Source: a virus. From it: a stretch of 35,519 nucleotides of DNA. The notes beneath the pieces were generated by a model. That model had not been told where the DNA came from and did no database searches. It was given only the letters and a program-made list of their open reading frames with translations. The translations under genes and the position numbers were made by a program. Numbering within the stretch: the first letter of the stretch is position 1; the number at the start of each line of letters is the position of its first letter. The stretch is taken from positions 1 through 35,519 of IMG/VR virus record IMGVR_UViG_3300038360_000191; one strand, given 5' to 3'. This document shows positions 4,029 through 33,848 of this stretch, piece after piece.

Positions 4029-5099
4029 CTAACTTGTGTGTTCTGAAGGTAATCCGATGATTGAACCATGCACGTCACGCCTGGTAGGAGCGATCCCACC
4101 AAAGTGTCTCATCATTGTACGATAGACATACTGCGTTTCCATCTGTTCCCAAGGAATCCACTTGTGATTCAGCTTTGGAGCATGGAATAATTGCAGGAAG
4201 TTTTCGTTAATGATATAACATGTTGCAGTAGCACCGGGCTGTTGGAATCCACCTTCTACCCAGGAATCAGCTACAATGTCCACTCCACGGAGTTTTATGA
4301 TATCATATCCACCATCATACCGTTTTTCGGCATGTGTCGCTATTTGTCGGTCGGTAAGGACCTCATCATAGGCATCCCATACATGGGCTGTGCATATAAT
4401 AAGCGTCGGTTTGTGGCCGGTCTTTTCACCAATATTACTGATCGCTTTCTTTAACATGCGTTCAATAAAGTAGGTTGAGGTCGGATCGGTAAGATTTGCA
4501 TAAGTAGGTGCAGCAGTCGTGTGATCGTACACTTCTGGTAACCAATCAAATGCGTATTCGCCTGTTGATCCTATTTCAAGATCGTCAGGAGCTATTTCAC
4601 AGATCTCTTGACTTGTGGTGAGAGTTGTGAACATATCTTTGAATGAAGGGTACCTGGATACATCGGATCCAGATGAACGAAAGAGCATTTCAGAATGTTT
4701 CTTCTTGAAATCATCTCTCATTGTTTCCACTTTTTCAAGTGTGAGGTTGAGGAATTGCATCCTCGATGTGTTGAACACATCTACGTCAAGTCCGTTGATT
4801 CCGTAAGCAGCTTCAAGATACTGCCCACCGATATAGCCTTTTTCAAAGCTATCGAAGATCTGTACTACAATCTCTTCGTAACCAGTGGTTTTCTCTTTAA
4901 CTTCTCCAGCACCATATTTCAGGTTGAAGGAGATCCGCTTACCATCAGACCATGGGCGTGATCTTTTGTGAAGTCTTTTCATGATGATATTGGAATTCAA
5001 TATCTGATTGACTGCAACGGGGATTAAATGTTCCTTGGTTGCAATCTCCACGTCGCTCATCATGCGTGTAACTTCTGTTTTGGTATGTGCAGCAGGCAT
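4029..5099 (-). CDS. Major capsid protein
   Basis: A 356-residue protein encoded right after the scaffold gene with a GGAGG site 4 nt before the ATG. The N-terminal part is helical (residues 1-45). Then come FNLKYGAGEV, a long loop region, a central segment with GHKPTLIICTAHVWDAY (about residues 225-245) typical of a coat-protein A domain, and a C-terminal stretch ending in PTRRDVHGSIIG. Size, position between scaffold and decoration genes, and the lack of any enzyme motif support a coat protein with the HK97/P22 fold, which builds the icosahedral head. The fold assignment is inferred and no protease gene is visible nearby. Confidence 0.85.
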   Translation of the reverse strand: MPAAHTKTEVTRMMSDVEIATKEHLIPVAVNQILNSNIIMKRLHKRSRPWSDGKRISFNLKYGAGEVKEKTTGYEEIVVQIFDSFEKGYIGGQYLEAAYGINGLDVDVFNTSRMQFLNLTLEKVETMRDDFKKKHSEMLFRSSGSDVSRYPSFKDMFTTLTTSQEICEIAPDDLEIGSTGEYAFDWLPEVYDHTTAAPTYANLTDPTSTYFIERMLKKAISNIGEKTGHKPTLIICTAHVWDAYDEVLTDRQIATHAEKRYDGGYDIIKLRGVDIVADSWVEGGFQQPGATATCYIINENFLQLFHAPKLNHKWIPWEQMETQYVYRTMMRHFGGIAPTRRDVHGSIIGLPSEHTS

Positions 5100-5117
5100 A
5101 AAGCCTCCAATTTGCGT

Positions 5118-6182
5118 TCATACCTCATCCTCTTCAAATCCCATAGCAGCTTTAGCATTATCTATAGCTGTTTCCATGGAGTTATCGTCGTTTGCAGGTA
5201 TGACTTTTGATACCCCTTCGCCATTGGCATAGGGGGCAGATTTACGCAAAGGGTTAGCTTTGAGGTCCGATATTTCTTTATTGGCCTTCTTTAATTCAGC
5301 CTTTAAATTCGTTACTTCATCGATCTTGGCAGGAAGGACATGGTTCAGCTTGTATGCTGACATGATAGGTTCCTTCGCATTGATATCATTAACCGTTTGA
5401 ATGGTTTCATCTACCAATGTGTTGAATACCGTATCATCAGAAAACTTGCTGTCCATAGCTACAAGTAGCTTTCTCTCTTCGGCCAGTCCCTTGGTAGTAG
5501 CTTCCGTTCTCTCGGTAGTAGATACGGTTTCCCTCTCTCCTACCTTCTCAAACGCCTCTTTCAAGGCTTTGAATGGATTACCACCATCAACATCAGAGAA
5601 ATAATCTTTAAGCTGTTCCATAAAATCTTCATCTTTTAGAGCAGTTATAACATTATTCCTGACTTCGGGACTAAACTTGCCAACAAAAGAATCATAATCC
5701 TCTCGTTCCTTGGCTAACACCTTTGTCTTTTCGGTAAGGGATGCACGGAGTTTGTTTCTATTGTTTAAATCTGATAACAATAAAGCTCTATCAGGCTCAG
5801 ACATATCTGCATACGCTTCGCTTTCAAACAATTCCACTAAACTCTTAGTGAATTCCTTCTTTCCGTTGAGGGCACCATCCTCATTGTCTTTGGTTTCAGT
5901 GTCGGGTTTATCCTTACTTGGGGGCTTATCGGTTTTAGCCGAAGAGGACTCTTCTGGTTTTTCCTTGCCTGCTTCATCTTTGGAATCATCGGGGCTTTTT
6001 CCCTTTTCGTCGGTACTTGAGTCGATTTCTTCCTCAGATGGAATCTCTTTGCCTTCTCCATCAACATGTTTGATAGGTTCATCACCGTCAAACTGGTCCA
6101 TCACTCCCTGGGGAAATGATAGCGAATCGTCAGGAGAGGTCAATTTTTGATCTAATTCTTTTTGATGGTTTTTATCTGACAT
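5118..6182 (-). CDS. Scaffolding protein
   Basis: A 354-residue, strongly charged, cysteine-free protein. The first 120 residues are a low-complexity acidic and serine-rich region (many E, D, S, K, P), followed by helical segments with coiled-coil character around residues 150-290 (ERETVSTTERTEATTKGLAEE and NLKAELKKANKEISDLKA). It sits immediately upstream of the major capsid gene, the usual place for an assembly scaffold that guides procapsid formation and then leaves or is reused. The start ATG at 6182 overlaps the upstream stop as TAATG, pointing to translational coupling. Confidence 0.85.
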   Translation of the reverse strand: MSDKNHQKELDQKLTSPDDSLSFPQGVMDQFDGDEPIKHVDGEGKEIPSEEEIDSSTDEKGKSPDDSKDEAGKEKPEESSSAKTDKPPSKDKPDTETKDNEDGALNGKKEFTKSLVELFESEAYADMSEPDRALLLSDLNNRNKLRASLTEKTKVLAKEREDYDSFVGKFSPEVRNNVITALKDEDFMEQLKDYFSDVDGGNPFKALKEAFEKVGERETVSTTERTEATTKGLAEERKLLVAMDSKFSDDTVFNTLVDETIQTVNDINAKEPIMSAYKLNHVLPAKIDEVTNLKAELKKANKEISDLKANPLRKSAPYANGEGVSKVIPANDDNSMETAIDNAKAAMGFEEDEV

Positions 6183-6640
6183 TATCTGTCACTCGCATTC
6201 TTGTTTACGATTGCAAAGCCAATGTCAGGGTTACGGCTGTCTAAATATTTCAGCTTCATATTTGCTAATTGCTCAGTATTCACAGCCATGACTTTCTCAT
6301 CTTGTATAGTGGTTATCTTTAGAATAACTCCGTATGCTGCTGCTGATTGTCCTGGTTTGTTTGCCATTACTTCAGTTACAGTGGTTATCCCGTGCCGGTT
6401 GGTTTGGATAGAATACAGTTTCCATTTAATATTCTCATGGCCATAGTCAGGGATATCTCCCATGTCTCCAGCCACAAACTCTAATTCTTCTGTTTCATCT
6501 GTATTATCCAGACCTTTGGGCTCATCCTTCTCATCAGTGGGATTGTTTTGAGGAAACACATGATCTTCACCAGGATCCTCATTATCCTTGAGGGTTTGCC
6601 CCATATTTTCTGCTATATTATTTAAATCGTTTTTCGACAT
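6182..6640 (-). CDS. Hypothetical head-region protein
   Basis: A 152-residue protein with an acidic, disordered N-terminal half (to about residue 60, rich in D, E, N and P). The C-terminal half is more ordered, with WKLYSIQTNRHGITTVTEVM and AAYGVILKITTIQDEKVMAVN, which look like beta strands. It has an AAGGA site about 10 nt before the ATG and its stop overlaps the scaffold start. Position between GroES and scaffold suggests a head-assembly role, possibly a partner of the scaffold. No family recognised. Confidence 0.75.
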   Translation of the reverse strand: MSKNDLNNIAENMGQTLKDNEDPGEDHVFPQNNPTDEKDEPKGLDNTDETEELEFVAGDMGDIPDYGHENIKWKLYSIQTNRHGITTVTEVMANKPGQSAAAYGVILKITTIQDEKVMAVNTEQLANMKLKYLDSRNPDIGFAIVNKNASDR

Positions 6641-6674
6641 AATACTTTGTCCTTGTGTGTTATCGTTTTGAAAT

Positions 6675-6731
6675 TGCTGTAAACAGCAGCTATAACTTAA
6701 TATATTTGGAGAAATAAATTAATAGCTACTG
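6675..6731 (-). promoter_or_regulatory. Two mutually exclusive hairpins in the groES-scaffold intergenic gap
   Basis: In the 100-nt gap the minus strand can form a long hairpin. Its outer arms are 6723-6731 with 6684-6692 (nine pairs, one G-U). Its inner arms are 6712-6722 with 6697-6707 (ten of eleven pairs) around the loop CTCC. The lower arm bases 6684-6688 can instead pair with 6675-6679 (TGCTG/CAGCA around TTTA). The two folds exclude each other, as in attenuators. The outer G-U would be an A-C mismatch on the plus strand, favouring a minus-strand RNA. The role is inferred. Confidence 0.5.
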
Positions 6732-6740
6732 ATATATTTT

Positions 6741-7100
6741 TTATCCCACTAACGGGGGAAGTGTTGCAAGAATAGACATTTCGTTCATCACAAGGTACTT
6801 AACACCCTTGATTTCAACCTCTGTGCCTGCTAATCGCTCAAAGCATATATCATCACCAGGTTTGACCTCTACCGGATGAAGAACATTGGTTGAGTCGCTT
6901 CTGTGCCCTGGTCCTACTGCTATAACAGTGCCCTTGCGGTTCTTTTCCCGTTCCTTCTCCTTCATACTATCAGGGAGGATGATACCGCTGTCAGTCTTGT
7001 CAGCTATATCCCAGGGGGCTACCAGGACCTTATCATCTATCATTTTGAAAGTTTCCCCTAAATCCATCTCGTAGGGGCTGTCTTGTTTCATTGTTTCCAT
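6741..7100 (-). CDS. groES: Phage-encoded GroES-type co-chaperonin (Cpn10)
   Basis: A 119-residue protein with the full Cpn10 pattern. It has a core strand FKMIDDKVLVAP (residues 18-29), a mobile-loop segment SGIILPDSMKEK (38-49) that would contact GroEL, GTVIAVGPG (57-65), VKPGDDICFERLAG (79-92) and the C-terminal YLVMNEMSILATL (102-114). About 20 extra residues precede the core relative to bacterial GroES. Cpn10 caps the host GroEL chamber, and phage versions such as T4 gp31 (a structural analogue) or true Cpn10 homologues help fold coat protein. Here it lies just upstream of the scaffold and coat genes, fitting that job. The start overlaps the upstream stop as TAATG. Confidence 0.92.
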   Translation of the reverse strand: METMKQDSPYEMDLGETFKMIDDKVLVAPWDIADKTDSGIILPDSMKEKEREKNRKGTVIAVGPGHRSDSTNVLHPVEVKPGDDICFERLAGTEVEIKGVKYLVMNEMSILATLPPLVG

Positions 7101-7387
7101 TATCGTGTCCTTTGTTTATTTTCGATTATCTTAAAATCTGTTACTTTGAATGGCCTGGAGAATACCCTCCATTTCACCAGGAGTTTATCAATAACTCCCT
7201 GTGCCTCCTCTACTGACCTGTATCTCTTCCAGGTTCGCCACTTTTTAGTATATTTGCACAAGTATAGAAGCCGTATAGGCTTCTTCTTCTTTGATCTGTT
7301 GATCCCCTGGCATATCTCACTTTTAGGGAGTGATTGCCTCCGGTTCTTGTATGCAGAGGCTTCCTCTTTCATGCAGGAGTCTGACAT
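7100..7387 (-). CDS. Hypothetical basic protein
   Basis: A 95-residue, strongly basic protein (many K and R) with an aromatic cluster YLCKYTKKWRTWKRY around residues 43-57 and a helical segment VEEAQGVIDKLLVKWRV after it. No catalytic motif or membrane segment is visible. Its start abuts the stop of the zinc-ribbon gene upstream and its stop overlaps the groES start, so the three are translationally coupled. A nucleic-acid-binding role is possible from charge alone. Confidence 0.65.
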   Translation of the reverse strand: MSDSCMKEEASAYKNRRQSLPKSEICQGINRSKKKKPIRLLYLCKYTKKWRTWKRYRSVEEAQGVIDKLLVKWRVFSRPFKVTDFKIIENKQRTR

Positions 7388-7638
7388 TATTCGATTACCT
7401 CATATTCTGTTGCGAAGTAGGATCCACATTCTCCGCATGTGTGACCCCATTCCTTGATATTCTCTGTTGGTGAGGCAATATTATAGATGTTCCCATCTGT
7501 GTTGCCACAATTCGAGCACTCTTCTTTTGGGACTATGACATAATCATTTATCCTGACAAAATCAGTGAAAGACATCTGCTCCTGGTCTTTCATATTATCT
7601 AACATTTTAGTCATGTCTTTTCCTATGTCCTTGACCAT
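7387..7638 (-). CDS. Small zinc-ribbon protein
   Basis: An 83-residue protein with two CxxC knuckles, CSNCG at residues about 41-45 and CGECG at about 72-76, preceded by VIVPKEE. This is a classic four-cysteine zinc-ribbon layout. The N-terminal 30 residues are helical and methionine-rich. It overlaps the upstream membrane-protein gene by 16 nt. The partner or target is unknown; it lies in the late operon between portal and groES. Confidence 0.7.
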   Translation of the reverse strand: MVKDIGKDMTKMLDNMKDQEQMSFTDFVRINDYVIVPKEECSNCGNTDGNIYNIASPTENIKEWGHTCGECGSYFATEYEVIE

Positions 7639-7817
7639 TCCTTTGCCCTCATGTGTAGTCTTGCGGATCCGTACAGTAATGCCATCGATATAGCCGGGTA
7701 GTACCAGGAATTATCCCCTATTTTGAGATTCCATAGAGATACAGCTGTTACCCAAATGAATATCAGCATTATGATGGCTGTGAGATAGTCCAGGATGAAT
7801 TTAAGGAGGTCTATCAC
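7623..7817 (-). CDS. Small membrane protein
   Basis: A 64-residue protein with a clear hydrophobic segment at residues about 8-30 (ILDYLTAIIMLIFIWVTAVS) and a weaker one around 38-52 (WYYPAISMALLYGSA). It ends in a basic tail. Its start overlaps the portal stop by 4 nt. It could be an inner-membrane protein of unknown purpose. A holin is conceivable, but the lysis genes lie elsewhere. Confidence 0.65.
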   Translation of the reverse strand: MIDLLKFILDYLTAIIMLIFIWVTAVSLWNLKIGDNSWYYPAISMALLYGSARLHMRAKEWSRT

Positions 7818-9859
7818 TGTGCTGGTTGTGCCTGCTGTTGCTGCATCTGTTCTGCAAGTGCCTGGAGTTCCTGGGCATGGTTCTGGACAAATGCTTTGAC
7901 TGCTCTATCTTCCGGGGCTGCTTCTGCCAGCATGTTCAATACCATGAATGTAGCTTCGGGATTCTCGGCCCACATCTGTTCAAGAGCCTGCATCTTCTCA
8001 TCTTCATCCTCTATCTGCATTATCTCTTCTGCCCTGGCCTGTACTTCTTCCTGGATCCGGGCTTCTTCTTCGGGATCGCCCTGCTGTTCCTGTGCCTGTC
8101 GCTGTTTGGCAACATATTCCTTCGCTCGTTTCTTATCTTCGAGTGTTGGAGCCAGGTCAATAAGATGTTCAATAGAAATCCCACCCCGTTGAAATAATGC
8201 TACTGCCTCTTCAAATAACGCTTGTTTATCTACCGGGAGCATTGATGCTTGTTTAACAGTGATGTTAAATCGCATATTTCTCCCCTCCTGGGGATTGAAT
8301 GGCTGGAATTGTTCGTTTCCACCCTCATCATCTTCTACTTGCTGTAGGATTGGATCGTCTGAGTACAGATGTTGGACTATATCGGCACAGTGCTTATAGA
8401 AATCTTCCACGAATGTCACAATGTCCTCAACCTTCGGCTGTACTCTGCCACCGGATTGGACAATAAGAGCCTTCTCCTTTTCTCCACTGGATTGGCTGGA
8501 TGATTGGAGCCCTCTGAATGAATCCGTGGTTCCCTGGACTAAATCAGCATCATCTTTGAGTAATCCTATCATGTTGTAAACAAATGCTGCAATGGGATCC
8601 GGGGTATGCAGTTGGATGCCCCCTATTTTATTTACCGGAATTCTTTCTCCTGGTCCTGGTGCATAGGCATTGGCTGGATCAGACAGGAAAGCCTCAATGA
8701 CTTCCATAAATGGATTCCCGAAATACTCAGTGTTATCAAGTGCATTGGATATCAGCTGATTGATCGCTTTCATGTGCGGTTCTATCGCTTTGCCCTCTGA
8801 TCTACCAAATAGCTTTCCTGTTTGTGGGAGCCCGGATACAACAAACTCCGGCCCATCTATATACGGACATGGATAATCCTGGATAATCCAATCTTTGTGA
8901 CCTTTGACTATCGTGAGGACTCGGCCATTTTCAAATTTCGGTCTTGTTTTCGTAACCATCTCCGGCTCGTCGTTCTCATCCTTGATCTTCTGCCCCTCTT
9001 TATCAAGTTTATAATCTTCGTATTCTTCCAGGGTATAGTCTGTTGTGTGATACTCTAATACCAGGGATCCACCATTGACATCATCCTCCGTATCTCCTAC
9101 TGCTCCCTCTGCATCTTTGATAGGGGTGTTATCAGTTTGCTGTGTCTCTCTGAATTGCTTGAGGTTGTTAACTGATCCCATGGACTTAACTTTGATTCCA
9201 TAAGTATTGAATATTTGATCCACGGTCATTACCACACAGCGGAAATATGACAGCTTTTTATTCACATCCCTGGGTGACAATAGATTTGGGTCAGGGAGAA
9301 AGCCATAAATATCATCAGGTTCCGGTTCTATCTCTTGGGTGTCGGGGTTAAATGGGACATGGTAACAGGTTGTACCCTTTATGCCATATTCAAGGATCCC
9401 CTGGCGTAGCTTGCTCTTCATCTTGGTTTCTTCCCATACCCTGACAAGTTCACGCTTTAAGCCTTTCGCATATTCAACCGCTGCCTCCATCTCTTCCCGT
9501 TTTGTGTATCGTGGGTCCGGTTTTATCTCTGGCCGTGGTGTTCCTGTTGTCATTGCTGCTGCAAGGGTCTGAGTTACTTCAAATAACATGTTCGATTGAA
9601 ACTCTGCCATCCTGGTAGCCACTCCATGCCTTCCATCCCAGGCATCTGTATTCTCATAAGCTACCCATTTATTCCAATCTGCGATAACTTTGCTGTCATT
9701 GAGGTGCTTGCGGAATGAATCATGTGTTGCCAGGACCCAATTATATAAAGTTTGGTCCTCGTATGGTTTCCCATCTACCGGCCTTTTCTTTCTGTCTTTC
9801 TCATCTAATTTTATCGTGCCACTATTAACTTTGAGGGCTTCCATTGCATTGGCTACCAT
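7814..9859 (-). CDS. Portal protein
   Basis: A 681-residue protein directly downstream of the large terminase. It shows the layout of large P22/T7-type portals: a helical N-terminal region (VANAMEALK to RMAEFQSN), a central beta-rich wing and stem with FGRSEGKAIEPHMKAINQL (about residues 345-363), and PGPGERIPVN and GGIQLHTPDP in the clip/stem part. A long helical, glutamine-rich C-terminal tail (from about 590: KRQAQEQQGDPEEEARIQEE) resembles the barrel of P22-type portals. The portal is the dodecameric DNA gate at one capsid vertex where terminase docks. The start overlaps the upstream gene by 7 nt. Confidence 0.88.
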   Translation of the reverse strand: MVANAMEALKVNSGTIKLDEKDRKKRPVDGKPYEDQTLYNWVLATHDSFRKHLNDSKVIADWNKWVAYENTDAWDGRHGVATRMAEFQSNMLFEVTQTLAAAMTTGTPRPEIKPDPRYTKREEMEAAVEYAKGLKRELVRVWEETKMKSKLRQGILEYGIKGTTCYHVPFNPDTQEIEPEPDDIYGFLPDPNLLSPRDVNKKLSYFRCVVMTVDQIFNTYGIKVKSMGSVNNLKQFRETQQTDNTPIKDAEGAVGDTEDDVNGGSLVLEYHTTDYTLEEYEDYKLDKEGQKIKDENDEPEMVTKTRPKFENGRVLTIVKGHKDWIIQDYPCPYIDGPEFVVSGLPQTGKLFGRSEGKAIEPHMKAINQLISNALDNTEYFGNPFMEVIEAFLSDPANAYAPGPGERIPVNKIGGIQLHTPDPIAAFVYNMIGLLKDDADLVQGTTDSFRGLQSSSQSSGEKEKALIVQSGGRVQPKVEDIVTFVEDFYKHCADIVQHLYSDDPILQQVEDDEGGNEQFQPFNPQEGRNMRFNITVKQASMLPVDKQALFEEAVALFQRGGISIEHLIDLAPTLEDKKRAKEYVAKQRQAQEQQGDPEEEARIQEEVQARAEEIMQIEDEDEKMQALEQMWAENPEATFMVLNMLAEAAPEDRAVKAFVQNHAQELQALAEQMQQQQAQPAQ

Positions 9860-10059
9860 TGTTGTTTAACCTTCTCATCTTTCTTCTTCACCGTGGGTTT
9901 CAGGGGGATATTCTCCACCTTTTTAATGACGTTTCCGGCAAAGCTGTTGTGTTTTATATACCTATCCATAGTTACATTGATAGCTTTGGCTACTATGATG
10001 CCTGAAGCTACTATAGCTATAGAGATAGGTATGCTTATCATCAATACGTTTATTACCAT
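9853..10059 (-). CDS. Small membrane-anchored protein
   Basis: A 68-residue protein with one N-terminal hydrophobic stretch (MVINVLMISIPISIAIVASG, residues 1-20) and a lysine-rich C-terminal half. It is wedged between terL and the portal gene with 7-nt overlaps on both sides; both junctions use an ATGGTAA or ATGGTAG arrangement. Such tight placement argues that it is translated. Function unknown; a membrane tether for head assembly would be speculation. Confidence 0.6.
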   Translation of the reverse strand: MVINVLMISIPISIAIVASGIIVAKAINVTMDRYIKHNSFAGNVIKKVENIPLKPTVKKKDEKVKQQW

Positions 10060-11678
10060 CGTGCCACTTTCTTTTTAGTGTTGAAAACTTCATCCAATAC
10101 TCTTTCCTGCTCCCTCTGCTGGAATGTCTGCCTGGGAGGAGGTGTACTGGTGCATACTCCATATCTTATTACATCCGGGAAATCCTTATACTTCTCTACT
10201 ATAATCCCGGTGCCTACTGCTTTATCTGCTGCTGCCTTGGTTACTTCCATCTTCCTGATATAATGCGATAGCCCGTTCCAGGTGTGATAACAGGTGTTCC
10301 ATATTATTAATCCTGGCTCAATATTGGGATCATTGGGTACCGGCATGTCCCTGAAAGCCTCCCTAACCATCCTGTGCCCATACTGAATCTCTGTCTCTGC
10401 ACCTGATATGCTGTAGGATTCTTTGAAATTGAATGGATAGTCTGCCTTTTTACCGGCTTTTGCGTACAGTGTTGCGAAATTTGTGTCTCCCCTGGTCTGC
10501 CATCCAAACCTTTTGTCCAGGACTCTGCCTACATTCCGGCCTTTAGGTTGAATAAATGGGTGTAGATTCTCCATTGCGATCCAATCCCGGACCTCTTCGC
10601 TGGTAGTTCGCTTCCCGTGCATCTTCCAGAATGGGGACTTTTTGCTCCTGGGGTATTCATCAAATATTATTCTTCGACCATCTGGATTAATCGCCATCCA
10701 TATGCTTGCTGAATATCTGCCATCGTGGGGATCCACAATCTGTAATAGCTTGGCTTCGGGATGTATCGGGAATTCATCAGGATCCCGGAAGTGCCTCGCT
10801 TTGCTTATATTACTGCCATAAATCGACCTGGAGAAGTACATAAACTTTCCCTTGGCCCTGGCTGCGTACTCATCATCGTCATAATCTGCAACCATAGAAT
10901 CAATAATGCCAGCCTCTAAGTGTCCCCTTATCCCTCTCTTTTGGCAAGCATCATATACCTCTGCATCTAAATGATGGTATCCACCTCTGTCATTTTCTGC
11001 TCCCTCGGCAACTTCATCGATTATATATGGATCACAATACAGCGGAGTCATAGGTAATAAGATGATACAGCCCATTCTACGACGTGATTTAATAGCCTTC
11101 CATATATTTTCCGGGCATGGTTCATCGAGGATAACAATACCCACGTCAGCTGATTCAAATGTCTTGGGATCCTGGTCGAATGTCTTGAGGTGTACTAAAA
11201 ACTCATCATTAAACTTAAATTCGCTCGTATAAGGCTTTCCACCCTTGTTCCCGACATAAGTGCCCATCTTGGCAAGTTTCTCGATCTCAGGCACCACTTT
11301 GTTCTTGAGTGCGTCTGCTGTGCAACAGTACCATGCATGTTTTGGATATGGGAAGTTTTTGAATAATGGTTGGTCAAACCATCCGTTTTGAGGCCCATAG
11401 ATGAAATTCATTAAAATTTGGATGGAGGTTGTGGTCTTGCCTACACCATTGGCATAAGTTACCAGGATCACCGGGGTATCTACATCCTGGTTGCATGTAG
11501 CCACTGTGTTGATAAATTCTTCTTGTTTGCCGTTGGGACAGTAAAATTCAAGTGGTTTGCTTTTATAGGAATGTACAAAGGCAATGAATTCCTTCTCTGT
11601 ATATACTCCCTTGGCCACCAGGTCAGCCATCATATAAGGGTGAAGTTTGTTTTTAGTTAGCTGGCTCGATTGCAGCAT
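10053..11678 (-). CDS. terL: Terminase large subunit
   Basis: A 541-residue packaging motor and nuclease. The ATPase half holds a Walker A site YANGVGKTT at residues 75-83, a Walker B IVILDEP at 181-187, and a likely coupling motif MTPLYCD near 210. The nuclease half begins with LLQIVDPHDGRYSASIW (D317) and IIFDEYPR (D340), the acidic positions expected of an RNase H-like headful nuclease. TerL pumps DNA through the portal and cuts the concatemer. It follows the small terminase with a 26-nt overlap and precedes the portal region. Length is normal for the family. Confidence 0.93.
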   Translation of the reverse strand: MLQSSQLTKNKLHPYMMADLVAKGVYTEKEFIAFVHSYKSKPLEFYCPNGKQEEFINTVATCNQDVDTPVILVTYANGVGKTTTSIQILMNFIYGPQNGWFDQPLFKNFPYPKHAWYCCTADALKNKVVPEIEKLAKMGTYVGNKGGKPYTSEFKFNDEFLVHLKTFDQDPKTFESADVGIVILDEPCPENIWKAIKSRRRMGCIILLPMTPLYCDPYIIDEVAEGAENDRGGYHHLDAEVYDACQKRGIRGHLEAGIIDSMVADYDDDEYAARAKGKFMYFSRSIYGSNISKARHFRDPDEFPIHPEAKLLQIVDPHDGRYSASIWMAINPDGRRIIFDEYPRSKKSPFWKMHGKRTTSEEVRDWIAMENLHPFIQPKGRNVGRVLDKRFGWQTRGDTNFATLYAKAGKKADYPFNFKESYSISGAETEIQYGHRMVREAFRDMPVPNDPNIEPGLIIWNTCYHTWNGLSHYIRKMEVTKAAADKAVGTGIIVEKYKDFPDVIRYGVCTSTPPPRQTFQQREQERVLDEVFNTKKKVARW

Positions 11679-12276
11679 CGGATACTGTAAGTTCCTCTGT
11701 TTTGTTATACTTCTCTAACATGGCTCTTGCTGTTTCTGCCTGCTGTTCGTGGTACGCTTCTTCCATAACTTCCCTGGGAGTTAGGTCCAGGACCTTATCA
11801 GTGAACATTGCCAGGTATCGGCCCAATAGTTCCAGGCCCTTCAGCTTGTCATTGGTCTTGATCTTCTTGAGATATTCATATTCGTCTGCGGATCCCTCTT
11901 TACCATTCACAATCTTGGAGAGAGTGACTTCCATACTTGCAACTGCTGCTGCGGTGTCCCTGGGGAGTAGGTGAATAGGGATAAGTTCCCCTTTATCATC
12001 AAATAAATCCTGAGTATTTAGAAAAGCAATCTTCATTATCTCCCGGATCACATCTTCTACGGTTACGTCATGCTTATCCATAGCCCTCTGTCTTAGCTCT
12101 TCAAGTCTTGTTGTAATCTTGCTGTTGTTTGACAACTCAAAGGCGTTCCTGTTGATCGTTGTATCTTTCATTTTTTTTGTGTTATATGCTATGCGGTACG
12201 CATCGGAAAGAGATTTACCCTCAACTACCTTCTGACAGAATATCTCTTGTTTGTCGGTCAGTCTATTTTTTGCCAT
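11653..12276 (-). CDS. terS: Terminase small subunit
   Basis: A 207-residue protein with the N-terminal pattern of the Terminase_2 family: LTDKQEIFCQKVVEGKSLSDAYRIAY (residues about 6-31), a helix-turn-helix that recognises the packaging site. KITTRLEELRQRAMDKHDVTVEDVI and a helical oligomerisation region with a charged tail follow. It lies immediately upstream of terL, as usual. The ATG is preceded by an AGG site and overlaps the upstream gene by 14 nt. Confidence 0.9.
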   Translation of the reverse strand: MAKNRLTDKQEIFCQKVVEGKSLSDAYRIAYNTKKMKDTTINRNAFELSNNSKITTRLEELRQRAMDKHDVTVEDVIREIMKIAFLNTQDLFDDKGELIPIHLLPRDTAAAVASMEVTLSKIVNGKEGSADEYEYLKKIKTNDKLKGLELLGRYLAMFTDKVLDLTPREVMEEAYHEQQAETARAMLEKYNKTEELTVSDAAIEPAN

Positions 12277-12568
12277 ATTTCCTGCCTTCTATCCCTCTAA
12301 TAACAGTCTCCCTGGGAATATTTAGGTGCTGCTCTATTATCGTGTGCTTTTGTTTTAATGTCAGGTCAGTGTATTCAAGTGCTACGGCCATTCCCTGTAT
12401 AGTTGGGAACAGAAGGTTATAGGCACATGCCGGGCATATTTCCCTGGGTTTTCCAAAGGTCGGCATATATCCCGGAGGGTAATAATCCGTCTTGCCTCCG
12501 CTTATACCCGTCTGCCAGCCCCATCCACATCCTACGGTATTATTGCAGATTGATACCGATTCTGACAT
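12263..12568 (-). CDS. Cysteine-containing small protein at head of late operon
   Basis: A 101-residue protein from the ATG at 12568; a GTG at 12586 in frame is the alternative, and neither has an ideal ribosome site. The N-terminal half has CNN...GCGWGW and CPACAYN, a possible four-cysteine zinc site. The C-terminal half has KQKHTIIEQHLNIPRETVIRGIEGRKYG, which looks like a helix-turn-helix. A DNA-binding role at the start of the late operon is plausible but inferred. It overlaps terS by 14 nt. Confidence 0.65.
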   Translation of the reverse strand: MSESVSICNNTVGCGWGWQTGISGGKTDYYPPGYMPTFGKPREICPACAYNLLFPTIQGMAVALEYTDLTLKQKHTIIEQHLNIPRETVIRGIEGRKYGKK

Positions 12569-12663
12569 GCCATAATTTAATACCACCTAATAATTTATTT
12601 TTTAATAATAAAAGATATGCTATATTTCACCGTCGGGAAATACATGAATAAATACTACATTAA
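12569..12663. promoter_or_regulatory. AT-rich divergent promoter region
   Basis: This 95-bp gap separates the minus-strand late operon from the single plus-strand gene. It is very AT-rich (TTTATTTTTTAATAATAAAA). For the minus strand, TTGTAA (12670-12675 on the complement) lies 17 nt from TATTCA. For the plus strand only weak boxes such as TATGCT near 12616 are visible. The divergent arrangement makes at least one promoter likely, but no box is strong. Confidence 0.45.
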
Positions 12664-12855
12664 ATGTTTACAAAAGAGAAAACTTCTGCTGATATCAGAA
12701 ACTATCGCAAGGAATACCTTGATAAATCTACCGAAGATTACATGCGATCTTGTTGCATGTCACGAGAAGAAGCGAGTCGAAGGGCTTTAGCGGATTGGAA
12801 GAGGTATCAGGAACCTCTTATGGAGAGGGCAAGGGGATTGTCTCAAGAAATGTAA
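12664..12855 (+). CDS. Lone plus-strand small protein
   Basis: A 63-residue, charged, mainly helical protein (YRKEYLDKSTEDYMR, SREEASRRALADWKRYQE) with two adjacent cysteines at residues 30-31. It is the only convincing plus-strand gene in the window. Its stop codon runs straight into a perfect 10-bp terminator hairpin, which supports expression. The ATG directly follows a TAA in the same frame and I see no Shine-Dalgarno site, so translation may be leaderless or weak. Being divergent from the late operon, it could be a regulator, but no DNA-binding motif is certain. Confidence 0.6.
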   Translation: MFTKEKTSADIRNYRKEYLDKSTEDYMRSCCMSREEASRRALADWKRYQEPLMERARGLSQEM

Positions 12856-12880
12856 AAAGCCGGTTGTTACACCGGCTTTT
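12855..12880. terminator. Bidirectional rho-independent terminator
   Basis: Perfect 10-bp arms AAAAGCCGGT (12855-12864) and ACCGGCTTTT (12871-12880) around a 6-nt loop, with T runs on both strands. It ends the plus-strand gene and also the long minus-strand early operon that converges on it. Confidence 0.9.
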
Positions 12881-12936
12881 CTGTTTTCAGGTTAGTTTCA
12901 TGATAACCTCCTCTGAATAAATTTTGCAATGGGAAT

Positions 12937-12953
12937 TTTAGGTGTGACCTAAA
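12937..12953. repeat. Perfect 7-bp palindrome downstream of RHH gene
   Basis: TTTAGGT and ACCTAAA are separated by 3 nt. It lies 2 nt beyond the stop of the ribbon-helix-helix gene. It may be a weak terminator hairpin for the early operon or a binding site for that protein. Confidence 0.45.
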
Positions 12954-12954
12954 G

Positions 12955-13089
12955 TTATTTTACATACTCCTTTATCAGTTGGATCATTACTTCCCTCATG
13001 GTCTTGCCCTTGGAAGCACACTTGGTTTTGAATTTCTCCCATAACTTTACATCCATGCCGTTAATTTGATATTTTTTAGACTTGGCCAT
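12955..13089 (-). CDS. Ribbon-helix-helix small DNA-binding protein
   Basis: A 44-residue protein (MAKSKKYQINGMDVKLWE at the start) with a short strand KYQINGMD, then helix VKLWEKFKTKCASKG and helix MREVMIQLIKEYV. This matches the minimal Arc/CopG ribbon-helix-helix fold, which binds operators as dimers. The ATG overlaps the upstream stop as TAATG. It is the last gene of the early operon and has a palindrome just beyond its stop. Regulation of nearby promoters is inferred. Confidence 0.75.
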   Translation of the reverse strand: MAKSKKYQINGMDVKLWEKFKTKCASKGKTMREVMIQLIKEYVK

Positions 13090-13364
13090 TAATAATCCTC
13101 CTCATCCATTGTTTCCCCACAGTAAGCAGTATCAAAATACTCATCCTTGCGATAAGGATAATTCCCTGATACTCCATTGTAGCAATCATCACAGTAGATG
13201 CCGGTATATATGCCGTAAATGTCTGCTCTTGCCCAATGGTGATACTTAATCTCCCCTGCCTTAAAACCTTCGTCACATTCCTCACCACATCCCCTGCAAA
13301 CGGCTGGAATAGGGTCCTCCAGCCGTTCATTGAATCTATCATCCATATTGTTGAAATTACTCAT
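13089..13364 (-). CDS. Small cysteine-rich zinc-binding candidate
   Basis: A 91-residue acidic protein with CRGCGEEC (residues about 23-30) and CDDC (about 58-61), plus a later single cysteine. The two pairs could hold a zinc ion. Aromatic residues are abundant (Y and W). It overlaps its neighbours by 1-4 nt at both ends. No family recognised. Confidence 0.7.
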   Translation of the reverse strand: MSNFNNMDDRFNERLEDPIPAVCRGCGEECDEGFKAGEIKYHHWARADIYGIYTGIYCDDCYNGVSGNYPYRKDEYFDTAYCGETMDEEDY

Positions 13365-13906
13365 GACTTCTTCCCAAACATGGATTCACAGCTTAACCGC
13401 ATAACTTCCCTTTCACTGAGGCCAAGTTTTCTATTTAGAGCATCTACACACTCTTTAGCATGGTTATAGTCAGTACCATACCTATAATCGGTTTTATAGT
13501 ATCCCTTCTCCCCATCCTTGACGATACAGGGGATATACTCCCCGTTATCATCCTTCTCTGTCTCAATAATGACATAAGCCACTAATTGAGGTTTTTGATA
13601 ATTGGGATTGATCTTTCCGGTGATGTGATTAGATACATCATCAGCCAATCTTATCAGCCCTACTCCAACAAAGCCATTCATATCAATAACCACGTCTATC
13701 AGGTCCACAAGCGTGAGCCCTCTATTCTCTATCAGGGTTTTGATTTCTTCCTTGGTGATGGGTATTTTCTTTTCTATTTCGGCCTTGGTCGCTATTGCAT
13801 CATCTTTATCATCAGTGTAGTATGTTTTTACCTCGTCAACTACACCATTCTCTATCCATTGAACAGCATACTCTTCATCTTTTTTTACGATTTTAATTTC
13901 TACCAT
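13361..13906 (-). CDS. Hypothetical protein
   Basis: A 181-residue protein from the ATG at 13906, which has GAGGG 4 nt upstream; an upstream start at 13951 lacks a site and would overlap the preceding gene. It starts with a beta hairpin (MVEIKIVKKDEEYAVQWIENG). A helical middle (ITKEEIKTLIENRGLTLVDLIDVV) and another beta region (PQLVAYVIIETEKDDNGEYIPCIV) follow. No catalytic motif seen. It is cotranscribed with the two small downstream genes. Confidence 0.75.
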   Translation of the reverse strand: MVEIKIVKKDEEYAVQWIENGVVDEVKTYYTDDKDDAIATKAEIEKKIPITKEEIKTLIENRGLTLVDLIDVVIDMNGFVGVGLIRLADDVSNHITGKINPNYQKPQLVAYVIIETEKDDNGEYIPCIVKDGEKGYYKTDYRYGTDYNHAKECVDALNRKLGLSEREVMRLSCESMFGKKS

Positions 13907-13913
13907 GATTCCC

Positions 13914-14420
13914 TCAAAAATTAAGATTAGTGTTGAATATCTGTTCCCCATCTTTCAATTCAGCTTTTATCTCATTCATAGCTTTCCCTAATGCTCCTTG
14001 CCCTCTTGGATGTTTTAAAAGCTGTGCTATTGTGAATCCTTTCCATGTCATTGTATTGTAATTATAGCAGTTGACTCCGTAAACAATCCCTTTCTCACAA
14101 TCCTTCATCATGGCCTTTTGGAACTTATTCTTTCGGTGCTCTTCGATTAGATCATCAACAACACTATCTAAAGTAGATTTAATTTCAAAAGGCTCTCCAA
14201 AGTCGGTGCAGATTCTACTTCTCATCAGGAAACATGCCTCTTCAGCTTCTCGCATTAATTCCTTACAGCCATCATAGTGGTGAATATAAGAGCATCCACC
14301 ACGGCCATCATTCTTGGCGTGAGCAAACTTTTTATTGTCTGCATATACATCAGCCATAAACATTGTTGTTTCCTCGCTGAAAGTTTCGTTGATTTTGACG
14401 TTCTTTAAAGTTATTTGCAT
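13914..14420 (-). CDS. Hypothetical protein
   Basis: A 168-residue protein with a good ACGAGG ribosome site. It begins with a beta segment (MQITLKNVKINETFSEETTMFMADVYADN), then GRGGCSYIHHYDGCKELMREAEEAC, an area with four cysteines and two histidines, and ends in helices. It resembles small phage proteins of unknown role. Downstream genes follow within 8 nt. Confidence 0.75.
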   Translation of the reverse strand: MQITLKNVKINETFSEETTMFMADVYADNKKFAHAKNDGRGGCSYIHHYDGCKELMREAEEACFLMRSRICTDFGEPFEIKSTLDSVVDDLIEEHRKNKFQKAMMKDCEKGIVYGVNCYNYNTMTWKGFTIAQLLKHPRGQGALGKAMNEIKAELKDGEQIFNTNLNF

Positions 14421-14621
14421 TTTTTCCTCGTGTTATTTATTGTTCAAATTTCCCTACCCATATTTTAAGAGCAAAGAAATGACACTTGCAACACATAAAT
14501 ATGTTATCTCCCACCTGGCTGTCTTATTTTGTTTTCTACTGATTGCGGATCCGTGATGGTGTCCTTTTACTAAATTGTTGTTTTTATTGACTTGTTGATT
14601 TTGGGTTATTTGTGGACATGG
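14421..14621. other. Noncoding gap
   Basis: About 200 bp with no convincing gene. On the minus strand a 19-codon frame (14437-14496) begins behind AGGTGGGAG and contains CCKCH, but its length gives no confidence. The region is AT-rich near 14560-14620 and may hold a promoter for the 14420 gene; no clear -35/-10 pair or hairpin stands out. Confidence 0.4.
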
Positions 14622-15116
14622 TTATCCTGGAAAGTAAAAACTTATCCCTATGGGCCCATTGTATCCCTTGGAAAAGTGAACCGCCCCTATTGCGTTACCC
14701 ATAGGAAACTTTAATACTGAGCCAGTACCGTAATACCGGATGTGCTTAATTCCACCATACTCTTTTATCTCCAGGAGCAGCCCATAAGCATTGAATATTT
14801 TATGAACAGGGACAATATAAACAATCTCATCCGCAATTTTTAAGCTGTGCTTCATCCAATCCCTTAATATCGTGTATGGGGGATTGCTTATTATCCAATC
14901 AACCGGAGTAGTCCATTCGAAAAAATCTTTGCCCTCCCGGATCTCGCACCATTCGGATCCCGGCATTAGATTATGAAAGGCTCCCTCACCTTTACATGGA
15001 TCGAGCATCTTCCCTGTTGGTTTGAACCACTCTACTGTATCCTTTGCACACCATTCCGGTGTGAGTACAACATCACTTGGGTTATGGTCTATGCCAAAAA
15101 GATTTTGTTGCACCAT
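14622..15116 (-). CDS. N6-adenine-type DNA methyltransferase (small)
   Basis: A 164-residue SAM-dependent DNA methyltransferase candidate. The SAM-binding motif I is DPCKGEGAF (residues 39-47) and the catalytic motif IV is NPPY (78-81), the form used by N6-adenine and N4-cytosine enzymes. A target-recognition domain is too small to be obvious, as in minimal phage methylases. It lies just downstream of a second, beta-class methyltransferase gene, so the pair may protect phage DNA from host restriction. Recognition sites cannot be read from sequence. Confidence 0.85.
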   Translation of the reverse strand: MVQQNLFGIDHNPSDVVLTPEWCAKDTVEWFKPTGKMLDPCKGEGAFHNLMPGSEWCEIREGKDFFEWTTPVDWIISNPPYTILRDWMKHSLKIADEIVYIVPVHKIFNAYGLLLEIKEYGGIKHIRYYGTGSVLKFPMGNAIGAVHFSKGYNGPIGISFYFPG

Positions 15117-15132
15117 TGTTTACTTTGAGGTT

Positions 15133-15903
15133 TTACGTGTTACCATTAAATCCGTTTATTATTAATTGATGGGTGTTAGTTCTTCTTACTGCAGTATCGA
15201 AATGTTCCTTCATTAATTCAATCCCAATAAAATTACGGTTTAGGTTATTACATGCTACGCCAGTGGTCCCTGACCCCATAGTAAAGTCTAATACTGTCTC
15301 ACCCGGTTTTGTGTATGTCTTGATTAGGTATTCCATTAATGCTACGGGTTTTTGGGTGCTATGTACGCATTTTGATGAAGCAACTTTTTGAATAACTATT
15401 GACAGTGTGTTAGGATACTTTAATGTATTCCCTTTATTGTCATGATATTTACATGATTGATTTTTATAAACTTCGCTGTTCTTGATCTCTCTATTTACTC
15501 CCTCTGAATGTAGTGGTGCCCCTTGCTCCATTATAGGATAATAATTAATCTTTTTACCAAAAATGGATATTACTTCATGCCTGCCCATGGGTTTTCTTTC
15601 TGCATTTAAATGTCCGGTCTTTAATACTTTGTCCCATATCCAATCATATTTGTAGTTCTTAATATTACTCATCCTCAAGGTGCTGCTGAATGGTTCGCTA
15701 CCAAACAGAGCAATCGCACCATTTGGCTTAATAAGTCTGTTTAAATGCCTCCACATTGGTTTGAATGGTATCACGATATCCCACTTGCAAGCAGTAGTAC
15801 CATAAGGAATATCAGCAAGGACCATATCAACACTACTATCATGGAGGTGATCCATGGCTACCAGGCAATCACCATGAATGAGTCTTAATTCATTTACTTC
15901 CAT
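15133..15903 (-). CDS. Beta-class DNA methyltransferase
   Basis: A 256-residue enzyme from the ATG at 15903, which overlaps the upstream stop as TAATG; a GTG 24 nt upstream lacks a ribosome site. Motif IV DIPYG is at residues 31-35, ahead of HSTQKP (181-186) and the SAM motif I DFTMGSGTTG (206-215). This circular order (IV before I) marks the beta class, which includes many N6-adenine and N4-cytosine phage methylases. DIPY in place of the common DPPY is a known variant. It probably modifies phage DNA. Confidence 0.9.
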   Translation of the reverse strand: MEVNELRLIHGDCLVAMDHLHDSSVDMVLADIPYGTTACKWDIVIPFKPMWRHLNRLIKPNGAIALFGSEPFSSTLRMSNIKNYKYDWIWDKVLKTGHLNAERKPMGRHEVISIFGKKINYYPIMEQGAPLHSEGVNREIKNSEVYKNQSCKYHDNKGNTLKYPNTLSIVIQKVASSKCVHSTQKPVALMEYLIKTYTKPGETVLDFTMGSGTTGVACNNLNRNFIGIELMKEHFDTAVRRTNTHQLIINGFNGNT

Positions 15904-16250
15904 TAGGTATTCTTTGACGCTTTCCACAGCTTAATGAATTCATCCCGTGGCATTACTTCTCCGCTAACTTTATAAACATCTCCATAGTCAAATGTTATTT
16001 GGTAGTCACCATCCATATTATATGCACAGCTTACCACTACAACTTTACAAAAATCGAATGTGCCAATGCCTGATATATTCAGAATACTCTCAACCTCCTC
16101 CCTGGTAGAATACAGCTCTATTGCAGCTTTGAATAGCTCTGTGAATTCTTTAGCTATTTGCCGTACATCCCATATCCCTGTCACGCCCTTATAACAGACT
16201 ATTTTATCTATTGCTTGTACAACTACCTCGTCGAATTCTTTCTCGTTCAT
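15903..16250 (-). CDS. Hypothetical protein
   Basis: A 115-residue protein beginning MNEKEFDEVV with a helical N-terminal half and a beta C-terminal half (CKVVVVSCAYNMDGDYQITFDYG). A GAGGT site precedes the ATG. Its stop overlaps the methyltransferase start. No family recognised. Confidence 0.7.
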   Translation of the reverse strand: MNEKEFDEVVVQAIDKIVCYKGVTGIWDVRQIAKEFTELFKAAIELYSTREEVESILNISGIGTFDFCKVVVVSCAYNMDGDYQITFDYGDVYKVSGEVMPRDEFIKLWKASKNT

Positions 16251-16258
16251 GTTACCTC

Positions 16259-16423
16259 TTATAATCGATTAAATAAAAATGCTTCTATCCACTTGTAATA
16301 ACACTTATCAGAGCACCACTGCCCCTTCAGAATTCTCTTCCCACAGGAACAGTGGTGTATTTTCTTTTTCCTTCTCTTAACTTCCTTCCGAACAGTGCCA
16401 TCAGGTGATACTATGAATCTCAC
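16259..16423 (-). CDS. Tiny zinc-finger protein
   Basis: A 54-residue protein starting at a GTG (16423) just beyond the stop of the upstream gene. The centre reads RRKKKIHHCSCGKRILKG, then WCSDKCYYKW, giving CxC and CxxxC pairs that can bind zinc, next to a very basic stretch. No ATG exists in the frame and no Shine-Dalgarno site is seen, so expression probably depends on reinitiation after the upstream gene. The cysteine pattern and codon-phase sense make it credible. Confidence 0.6.
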   Translation of the reverse strand: MRFIVSPDGTVRKEVKRRKKKIHHCSCGKRILKGQWCSDKCYYKWIEAFLFNRL

Positions 16424-16424
16424 A

Positions 16425-16664
16425 TCACAGCCGGGCTAAAGCGATACACCCGTCTTTATTCTCAATTATCCCTACTTTAACTCCCTGCCTGGCGAATCTC
16501 TTTATTTCACTGGCAAACCATACCTTCACACCTGAAGGTTTAGGAATTCTCGTTGGCTTGGGGATCCTGGGTAGGTCTTTATAAATTCCCATTATTGGTC
16601 CATTCTCAAATTTGGCGTTTTTTGTGAACCACTTTGTTATTCTGATATTTACTGGTGTTTTCAT
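16425..16664 (-). CDS. Hypothetical basic protein
   Basis: A 79-residue basic protein rich in K, R, I and P (LPRIPKPTRIPKPSGVKVW contains a doubled RIPKP unit). A GGAG site precedes the ATG. No known domain. It lies between a small HTH gene and a tiny zinc-finger gene. Confidence 0.65.
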   Translation of the reverse strand: MKTPVNIRITKWFTKNAKFENGPIMGIYKDLPRIPKPTRIPKPSGVKVWFASEIKRFARQGVKVGIIENKDGCIALARL

Positions 16665-16681
16665 TATTTCTCCGTTTTTTG

Positions 16682-16855
16682 TTATTCGTAGTATTTCTCT
16701 AAAAACTTTATGTCCCTGGCTGTTATGGGGTCCTTGCCGTTTTCTTTCCGGTTGATAGTCTCACGATTCTTATATCCCATCTTCTTGGCCATCTCCTCCT
16801 GAGTGATCCCTAACCACTTCCTGATTTTCTTCATGCTCTTGCCGGTGATAGTCAT
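16682..16855 (-). CDS. Small XRE-family helix-turn-helix protein
   Basis: A 57-residue protein with a helix-turn-helix: MKKIRKWLGITQEEMAKKMG (residues 8-27) then YKNRETINRKENGKDPI. The spacing and the LGITQEEMAKKMGY and TINRKENG phrases match Cro/CI-type repressor heads. The ATG overlaps the upstream stop as ATGA. It could regulate phage promoters, for example the operator-bearing promoter at 21912-21941. That pairing is inference. Confidence 0.85.
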   Translation of the reverse strand: MTITGKSMKKIRKWLGITQEEMAKKMGYKNRETINRKENGKDPITARDIKFLEKYYE

Positions 16856-17055
16856 GTACTCTCCACTATTTGATTTATTGCAGCATCCAGGATATTTCTC
16901 AACTTTATGACTCTTTTTAACTCCAGGTCAGATATAATGACAACCTTAACTTTGGCTGTTCCAGGGAGACTTGATTCTATCTGCATCCTTACAACTCCGC
17001 TTTCAGGCTTTGATAGGAAATTCATATTCGCCCATGGTGTGTTCATGCCACCCAT
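16852..17055 (-). CDS. Hypothetical small protein
   Basis: A 67-residue protein from the ATG at 17055, which overlaps the upstream stop as TAATG like many genes here. The frame continues upstream to 17157, but that start would overlap the preceding gene by over 100 nt. It has a beta stretch (TAKVKVVIISDLELKRVIKL) followed by a helix. No domain recognised. Confidence 0.65.
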   Translation of the reverse strand: MGGMNTPWANMNFLSKPESGVVRMQIESSLPGTAKVKVVIISDLELKRVIKLRNILDAAINQIVEST

Positions 17056-17516
17056 TATTGAAACCACCCTATTATCTGCTCGGTTACTGATATACAGCCC
17101 ATAACACATATCCATATACACACACCAAGGATAAGACTCACCTTTGTAGTTTCCCATCGTGTCCAGGGATCCGCTGGCTTGTAGCCAGTAGGTGTTTCAT
17201 AAGGAAAATAGTAAAGTGGTTTGGTAGGATCCGGCCCCATAGTCTCATGTTCATCCGGGATAGGGTATTCCATGTCCCAGGATAGATTTTTATTGGATTC
17301 TTCCTGGCTGGCTTTGCCGTGGACATCCATCAATATCATTTTTTTGATTAATAATTCTATAGCATCATAACCACTTAATATGTCAGCATTGTCACAGGAT
17401 ATACTTAAATCCCCGTGCTCTTCGTGTGTTGCATAGAAGGTGTTTATATTTTCACCTGAATCACATGTCCATGTCCATCCTTTGAGGGCCGGTAGATGTT
17501 TAGATGCAATATTCAT
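17055..17516 (-). CDS. Protein with C-terminal membrane anchor
   Basis: A 153-residue protein whose last 25 residues hold a hydrophobic span (VSLILGVCIWICVMGCISV) and end in IIGWFQ, a likely tail anchor. The N-terminal part begins MNIASKHLPALKGWTWTCDSGENINTFYATHEEHGDL, reminiscent of small proteins that bind a ligand, but no motif is certain. The start is 4 nt inside the upstream gene (ATGA). Confidence 0.7.
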   Translation of the reverse strand: MNIASKHLPALKGWTWTCDSGENINTFYATHEEHGDLSISCDNADILSGYDAIELLIKKMILMDVHGKASQEESNKNLSWDMEYPIPDEHETMGPDPTKPLYYFPYETPTGYKPADPWTRWETTKVSLILGVCIWICVMGCISVTEQIIGWFQ

Positions 17517-28151: not shown

Positions 28152-28168
28152 GTGTGTAATAAATAAAT

Positions 28169-28248
28169 AACCCCCTGCATAAGATCAGATATAGGTGACG
28201 AACCTGTATAGTGACCCCTGAAGGGCCACAAATCTTAATTAGGGGGTT
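28169..28248 (-). ncRNA. Three-way-junction structured element upstream of the replication initiator
   Basis: The 80 bp fold as a closing stem AACCCCCT/AGGGGGTT (28169-28176 with 28241-28248), continued by TAAGAT/ATCTTA (28180-28185 with 28232-28237). Two hairpins lie inside, 28189-28209 (8-bp stem, 5-nt loop) and 28211-28229 (7-bp stem, 5-nt loop). Each strand has one G-U and one A-C position, so the active strand is not decided. If transcribed on the minus strand it ends 17 nt before the ATG. It could be a riboswitch-like leader or part of the replication origin. It matches no riboswitch I know. Confidence 0.6.
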
Positions 28249-28291
28249 CAATAATGGGTATGTTATAAAATCGTCTTTCATATCTATTGAA

Positions 28292-29523: not shown

Positions 29524-29549
29524 TTTTTACCTCTTTTTATGTTGATTCC

Positions 29550-29670
29550 CCAGGGTAGAAAAGGAGTTACCCGGTAAAAGCGGAGAAAGCCACTCTATAC
29601 CCTCCTTAACTACCCTGGATCTGCAATACATACCCCGATAGAAATTCAGGGCTCGTGTCCGATGTATCGC
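29550..29670 (-). ncRNA. Structured leader or noncoding RNA ahead of membrane-protein genes
   Basis: Two folds lie back to back. The first (29623-29670) pairs 29662-29670 with 29623-29631 over nine positions and holds an inner CCCTG/CGGGG stem; both contain a G-U that would be A-C on the plus strand, so a minus-strand RNA is favoured. The second (29550-29618) has 9-bp arms CCAGGGTAG/CTACCCTGG, a symmetrical AA/AA internal loop and AAGGAG/CTCCTT. It lies entirely within the 150-nt gap before the gene at 29523 and could be its leader or a separate RNA. No ORF is present. Confidence 0.55.
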
Positions 29671-29673
29671 TAA

Positions 29674-29928
29674 TTATAGTGCTGTAAAGTCAGCCTCAAG
29701 TTTTACTATTTTATTCAATAGCACCTTTTTGTGTCCCCTCAATGCAGCCTTTGTAGAGGCCATTAATTCAGGATGATAATACAGGTCGATCTTGGTATCC
29801 ACTGTATTGGTAAGTTCTAATACATCGGCTTCATCATCCGCTAATTTATTAATAGAATTAATCTCTCCCTTTACGGCCTCGATAGCACTCTTAATTACCT
29901 CTGCTTGTTTCCACTGTTCTGGAGTCAT
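29674..29928 (-). CDS. Small coiled-coil protein
   Basis: An 84-residue protein with an AAAGGAGAG site. Helices cover most of it (MTPEQWKQAEVIKSAIEAVK, AALRGHKKVLLNKIVKLEAD). The only gene between two structured noncoding segments. No domain recognised. Confidence 0.72.
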   Translation of the reverse strand: MTPEQWKQAEVIKSAIEAVKGEINSINKLADDEADVLELTNTVDTKIDLYYHPELMASTKAALRGHKKVLLNKIVKLEADFTAL

Positions 29929-29954
29929 AATTTCTCTCTCCTTTGGTTAATTAT

Positions 29955-30180
29955 TCAGGGACCGGGAAAGCATCCAACAACCCGGCCCCCTTATTATGGG
30001 TGCAATGAAAAGACAACACCCTGACACAACTAAAAGCTGTGCCCTTAATGGTTTGGGGCAGGCAGTTGGTCTGCATTGTCCTGGATGTTGCATTGCGTTA
30101 TCAGTCAACAACAGGCTACCACGCCACTACCCCTTCATGTTTTCTACTACGCCAGTAATATATACACATGAATTATTTCA
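29955..30180 (-). ncRNA. Structured noncoding region, candidate minus-strand RNA
   Basis: This roughly 225-bp gap carries no gene. On the minus strand it forms several stems: TTCATGT/ACATGAA (30134-30140 with 30166-30172); a 9-bp stem with loop TTT (30023-30031 with 30035-30043, two G-U); GGGTGT/GCACCC (29998-30003 with 30016-30021, one G-U); and GGGGCCGGG/CCCGGTCCC (29958-29966 with 29981-29989, one G-U). Each G-U would be an A-C mismatch on the plus strand. A 14-bp near-repeat (30116-30129 and 30144-30157, two mismatches) lies inside. It may be a long leader of the gene at 29928 or an independent RNA of unknown class. Confidence 0.55.
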
Positions 30181-30189
30181 AAAAGCATT

Positions 30190-30213
30190 GGGCCGGGATC
30201 TCACCCCCGACCC
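30190..30213 (-). terminator. GC-rich terminator hairpin
   Basis: Minus-strand arms GGGTCGGG and CCCGGCCC pair over eight positions (one G-U) with an 8-nt loop, followed after five bases by TTTTTG. A second 8-bp hairpin with a 6-nt loop (30214-30235) lies directly upstream and covers the stop codon of the preceding gene. Together they should end the recombination-gene transcript and separate it from the structured region. Confidence 0.75.
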
Positions 30214-30231
30214 TTGACCTGGGCTAACAAG

Positions 30232-30477
30232 TCAAACTGGTATCATATACCCTTGTTCGATATAAGCAAAGGGAGTGTACCACCAGGAATAAACTTCTCC
30301 CACCTTGAATACATGCCGTTCCTGGCCTTTTATCCCGTGAGGGCTCACGAATTCTTTTATAACTTTGTACTTTCCCTTAACCCTATCAGGCCACTGACAT
30401 TTTAATAAATGCGAAGATAGACCCTTATAAGAGCTATCTTCATCACGGGGAAGATTTTTGGGCATATAAAGTGGCAT
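30232..30477 (-). CDS. Hypothetical small protein
   Basis: An 81-residue protein whose ATG overlaps the upstream stop as TAATG. The middle (KGKYKVIKEFVSPHGIKGQE followed by RHVFKVGEVYSWW) reads like a small beta-rich fold. No motif recognised. Its stop lies inside the hairpin at 30214-30235. Confidence 0.65.
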   Translation of the reverse strand: MPLYMPKNLPRDEDSSYKGLSSHLLKCQWPDRVKGKYKVIKEFVSPHGIKGQERHVFKVGEVYSWWYTPFAYIEQGYMIPV

Positions 30478-33516: not shown

Positions 33517-33554
33517 TTTTCCCTCGTAACAGTTAAAATAATTAAACTAATCGT

Positions 33555-33585
33555 GGCATAAGTTAAGGAAGATGTATTGACAATA
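33555..33585 (-). promoter_or_regulatory. Early promoter with operator palindrome
   Basis: On the minus strand TTGTCA (33578-33583) and TATGCC (33555-33560) are 17 nt apart, and transcription would start about 30 nt ahead of the HTH gene. The -35 box lies inside TATTG-A-CAATA (33575-33585), a perfect 5-1-5 palindrome and a plausible repressor site. The -10 box is only a fair match. Confidence 0.5.
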
Positions 33586-33594
33586 AAAAATAAA

Positions 33595-33624
33595 GGGCCA
33601 GGAAAATGCAAATAAACCTGGCCC
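33595..33624 (-). terminator. Terminator hairpin between lysis and early modules
   Basis: Perfect 8-bp arms GGGCCAGG and CCTGGCCC around a 14-nt loop, followed on the minus strand by TTTATTTTTTATT. It would stop read-through from the lysis side just ahead of the early promoter. Confidence 0.65.
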
Positions 33625-33723
33625 ACGAGGTAGAGCTGAACGAGGAAACAACTCTTATAGTGATACGTTTTAATGGGTATCGAAGGCTAAATATATACCT
33701 GTTGACTCATTTCAAGCAAAAAG

Positions 33724-33751
33724 AAAAGCCGGGGATAGATGCCCGGCTTTT
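33724..33751. terminator. Bidirectional terminator after lysis genes
   Basis: Perfect 10-bp arms AAAAGCCGGG and CCCGGCTTTT around an 8-nt loop, with T-rich sequence on both sides. It ends the minus-strand lysis transcript. Its plus-strand flank is nearly the same as that of the terminator at 12855-12880. No credible gene lies between it and the HTH promoter; the remaining 97 bp to the gene at 33849 show nothing clear. Confidence 0.85.
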
Positions 33752-33848
33752 CTGCTTTTCAACCATTTTTGAAATCGAGAGAGTAAAGAATCGGAGTCAA
33801 TGGAGGGATCCATTGAAGCGGTGCGGGACAGGGATGCCCCTGGGAAGT

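Follow-up and report, generated by a model that had tools for sequence, protein, structure and literature searches.

The DNA that we analyzed (hereafter the window) is IMG/VR record IMGVR_UViG_3300038360_000191, 35,519 bases long. Its main genes lie on the minus strand, and matches to phage families were obtained for the portal and head genes. Near a gap of 303 nt (29929-30231), which is flanked by ORFs of 84 and 81 amino acids, both on the minus strand, the window encodes a DnaD-like helicase loader, an SMC/SbcC-like ATPase, an Erf-like annealing protein and a small HTH protein. The codon usage of the flanking and neighboring ORFs is gene-like (z of 3.7 for the 84-aa, 2.4 for the 81-aa and 2.9 for a 105-aa ORF); a search for a family match to the 84-aa ORF found none. 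A preliminary description of this DNA had called the region between the genes at 29928 and 30232 gene-free, and this was borne out: two small ORFs inside the gap (73 aa on the plus strand, 48 aa on the minus strand) score like shuffled sequence in codon usage, and the 73-aa ORF had no match in a phage search. Read along the minus strand, the parts of the gap and the gene that follows are:

30190 to 30213, minus strand: the upstream operon's intrinsic terminator, with a 9-bp stem and a 6-nt loop, followed by AATGCTTTTT
30157 to 30181, minus strand: promoter-like motif TTGAAAT-N9-GTATATATT, with a near-identical motif at 33715-33690
30134 to 30172, minus strand: stem TTCATGT/ACATGAA, overlapping the promoter-like motif
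30157 to 30144 and 30129 to 30116, minus strand: two 14-nt direct repeats TASTGGCGTRGTAG, a possible operator
30055 to 30133, minus strand: H1, a long imperfect hairpin in a stretch whose stability is at chance level
30023 to 30043, minus strand: H2, a 9-bp hairpin with a UUU loop
29998 to 30021, minus strand: H3, a 6-bp hairpin with a pyrimidine-rich loop, like a hairpin of the 33.6-kb leader
29957 to 29990, minus strand: H4, a 10-bp hairpin with a 14-nt loop and a counterpart at 33624-33595
29674 to 29928, minus strand: the 84-aa ORF, downstream of the putative leader, with the Shine-Dalgarno sequence GGAGAG at 29941-29936

The stems described earlier were confirmed on the minus strand: there are six, and one or two G-U pairs occur in five (terminator 2, the 30172/30134 stem 0, H1 1, H2 2, H3 1, H4 2). 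The one-sided G-U bias had been taken as the mark of an RNA selected on one strand. That argument fails, because shuffled sequences of the same composition give an equal G-U share: 15/87 (0.172) in the best minus-strand fold of the gap, compared with 0.166 +/- 0.031 in dinucleotide shuffles. The minus strand of the gap is G+T-rich (163 G+T versus 140 A+C), and the bias is what DNA composition alone yields. A strand-neutral stem count gave 10 G-U versus 3 A-C, which is borderline against shuffles (p = 0.053), and the number of stems does not exceed chance (p = 0.26). More generally, a G-U bias on one strand of a single sequence needs to be compared with strand composition before RNA selection is inferred from it.

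The minus strand of the whole gap folds with a z of -2.63 (1 of 100 shuffles reaches it; a repeat estimate gave -2.69), whereas the plus strand is at chance level (about -1.0 to -1.34), and the difference between the strands has p = 0.027. The terminator, found on the minus strand where it had been described, supplies much of this excess. The stems of the folded stretch said to follow it are present, with mean pair probabilities of 0.94-0.99 for H2, H3 and H4, but the putative leader alone, without the terminator and promoter motif, does not exceed chance (z = -0.9). The 135 nt from the terminator to H2, which hold H1, have a z of -0.46, and the 132 nt preceding the 84-aa gene a z of -1.99. 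The minus-strand fold of the gap is thus modestly above chance, and other gaps in the window beat it against shuffles (29524-29673, z about -5; 33517-33848, z about -4.9).

The first of these, on the minus strand, is a more striking structure than the gap at 29929-30231, with 0 of 200 shuffles as good. It folds into a three-way junction and, after it, a long hairpin; within the hairpin are a Shine-Dalgarno-like AAGGAG and a mini-ORF (GTG GCT TTC TCC GCT TTT ACC GGG TAA). Rfam and phage searches gave no match to this structure. Another three-way-junction fold, closed by AACCCCCT/AGGGGGTT, lies at 28160-28250, precedes the DnaD-like gene and is stable on both strands (z of -4.2 and -5.1).

ARAGORN found no tRNA or tmRNA in the gap, and the window as a whole is without tRNA; Rfam returned no known RNA family, in keeping with the earlier remark that the region could not be fitted to tRNA, tmRNA, RNase P RNA, group I intron or a familiar riboswitch class. 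In Rfam, isrK and SPRY4-IT1_2 scored weakly (E of 1-1.8), which was taken as chance. No sequence covering the gap was found in phage and plasmid records, IMG/VR or GTDB genomes, and our reading therefore draws on a single genome and on the similar second gap inside it. A 16-mer of the H1 loop matched 17 contigs, but the match stops at 16-21 nt. Peptide patterns for the 84-, 81-, 173-, 382- and 412-aa proteins found no relatives in IMG/VR, in a search that requires exact 8-residue matches and that moderately diverged relatives may escape. GTDB held no relative of the 84-aa protein and one terminase relative, on a 4.5-kb MAG contig. In two distant phages, whose terminases are 44-52% identical, nothing corresponds to the early region. 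Three contigs match part of the window at 99-100% identity, with coverage limited to positions 1-17117. One near-identical contig (L021:5842-15148) extends the phage about 14.8 kb beyond base 1 of the window and, as read by eye, seems to carry a single reading frame of great length, part of which is helicase-like.

The whole-gap fold that beats shuffles (z = -2.6), the several discrete hairpins and the gap ORFs without coding signal would all suit an independent phage noncoding RNA that is transcribed from the minus strand and acts in trans, the 84-aa gene being simply its neighbor. We consider this unlikely: no terminator was found between the hairpins and the 84-aa gene, the G-U bias sits at the level of composition, and neither Rfam nor the phage, plasmid, IMG/VR and GTDB searches gave a match or homologue. 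The preliminary description had offered a long leader or a new noncoding RNA. A leader after the terminator fits the anatomy of the gap, while a new RNA marked by its G-U pairs is unsupported.

The best clue to the nature of the gap comes from elsewhere in the window, where the same order of parts recurs:

33517 to 33848, minus strand: second gap, with a terminator (33753-33722), the motif (33715-33690) and a hairpin (33624-33595), followed by the HTH/ERF/SMC-like operon

The features common to both gaps were picked post hoc, after inspection. In each gap a strong terminator is directly followed by TTGAAAT-N9/10-GTATATATT. This motif, also when sought as TTGAAAT-N(8-14)-TATATATT, has exactly two sites in the window (0 of 100 shuffles); the two are minus-strand sites, and a strong terminator immediately precedes each of them. 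The observed level of words common to both gaps was reached in 2 of 400 shuffles. Both gaps also hold a GGGCCRGG stem with a loop of exactly 14 nt, for which an equally good match arose in 2 of 3000 shuffles; at one pair G-C in one copy stands against A-U in the other, a double change, and at another pair G-U stands against G-C, with pairing kept at both. A smaller hairpin with a pyrimidine-rich loop precedes this stem in both leaders. Aligned with each other, the leaders reach p = 0.024 under loose local scoring and p = 0.115, not significant, under strict scoring.

Because the second gap has the same layout, we interpret the first as an operon junction at which the 84-aa gene has a structured 5' leader. 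In our assessment the gap is probably an ordinary phage operon boundary, made up of a terminator, a promoter-like motif and a folded RNA leader, and the same-strand order of terminator, promoter-like motif, hairpins, Shine-Dalgarno sequence and ATG is consistent with this. Two operon junctions of one design would be the simplest account of both gaps, and the phage probably employs a single junction type at two places, since a related layout precedes the HTH operon at 33.5 kb.

Under this operon-junction reading, the terminator at 30213-30190 would end the transcript of the upstream HTH/ERF/SMC-like operon, and the motif at 30181-30157 would start a new minus-strand transcript, with a putative start site. 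The two halves of the motif lie too close together for a sigma-70 promoter, and a search for a standard sigma-70 match between the terminator and the 84-aa gene found none. A leader of roughly 220 nt may then form as many as four hairpins ahead of the Shine-Dalgarno sequence and the start codon (ATG, 29928) of the 84-aa gene. Of these hairpins, the last two would be a cis-acting part of this gene's mRNA, and would most likely set mRNA stability, elongation or translation. Simple translational blocking is not indicated, because the hairpins do not mask the Shine-Dalgarno sequence: anti-Shine-Dalgarno pairing makes up 5% of sampled leader structures, and the sequence instead forms 4 bp with the beginning of the ORF. 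We rejected a riboswitch-like leader that sequesters the ribosome site on the same 5% figure.

Direct repeats at the promoter-like motif and replication genes nearby raise the thought that the gap works as DNA, as a control or replication region of protein-bound palindromes and repeats. With the repeats borderline against shuffles (p = 0.05), and with G-U pairs in most stems, each a mismatch on the opposite strand, we regard this as improbable.

The hairpin at 33595-33624 in the HTH-operon leader (14-nt loop) is followed by TTTATTTTTTATT and is possibly an attenuator. It is conceivable, though improbable, that the two leaders carry a cis-acting phage RNA element of a new kind: two hairpins in tandem, with no relative in known families, that the polymerase or a phage protein would read. 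If the leaders do share a working RNA element, one leader module would control two replication-region operons.

Known systems offer three points of comparison. GOLLD and ROOL are structured phage RNAs of unknown function that are large, defined by covariation and often near tRNA islands (PMC12286853). The leader described here differs from them in its length of about 220 nt, in a window without tRNA, and has no Rfam match.

HK022 put and lambda nut make the polymerase ignore terminators. By layout the two gaps resemble them, with related hairpin elements after the putative promoters of two operons; here, unlike in those phages, both operons lie on one strand. A cis-acting antitermination element of this kind, in which a hairpin pair after the promoter alters the polymerase, would account for two promoter-leader units that are related and contain hairpins in succession. 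We consider it unlikely, as there are two copies only, in a single genome, and the T-rich stretch after the hairpin of the 33.5-kb copy means that this hairpin could itself be a terminator.

Phage operon junctions with an intrinsic terminator, a promoter and a structured 5' leader are known. Although the leader sequence of the gap is without a known relative and its candidate promoter gave no standard sigma-70 match, on the coding strand the parts of the gap come in the order seen in these junctions.
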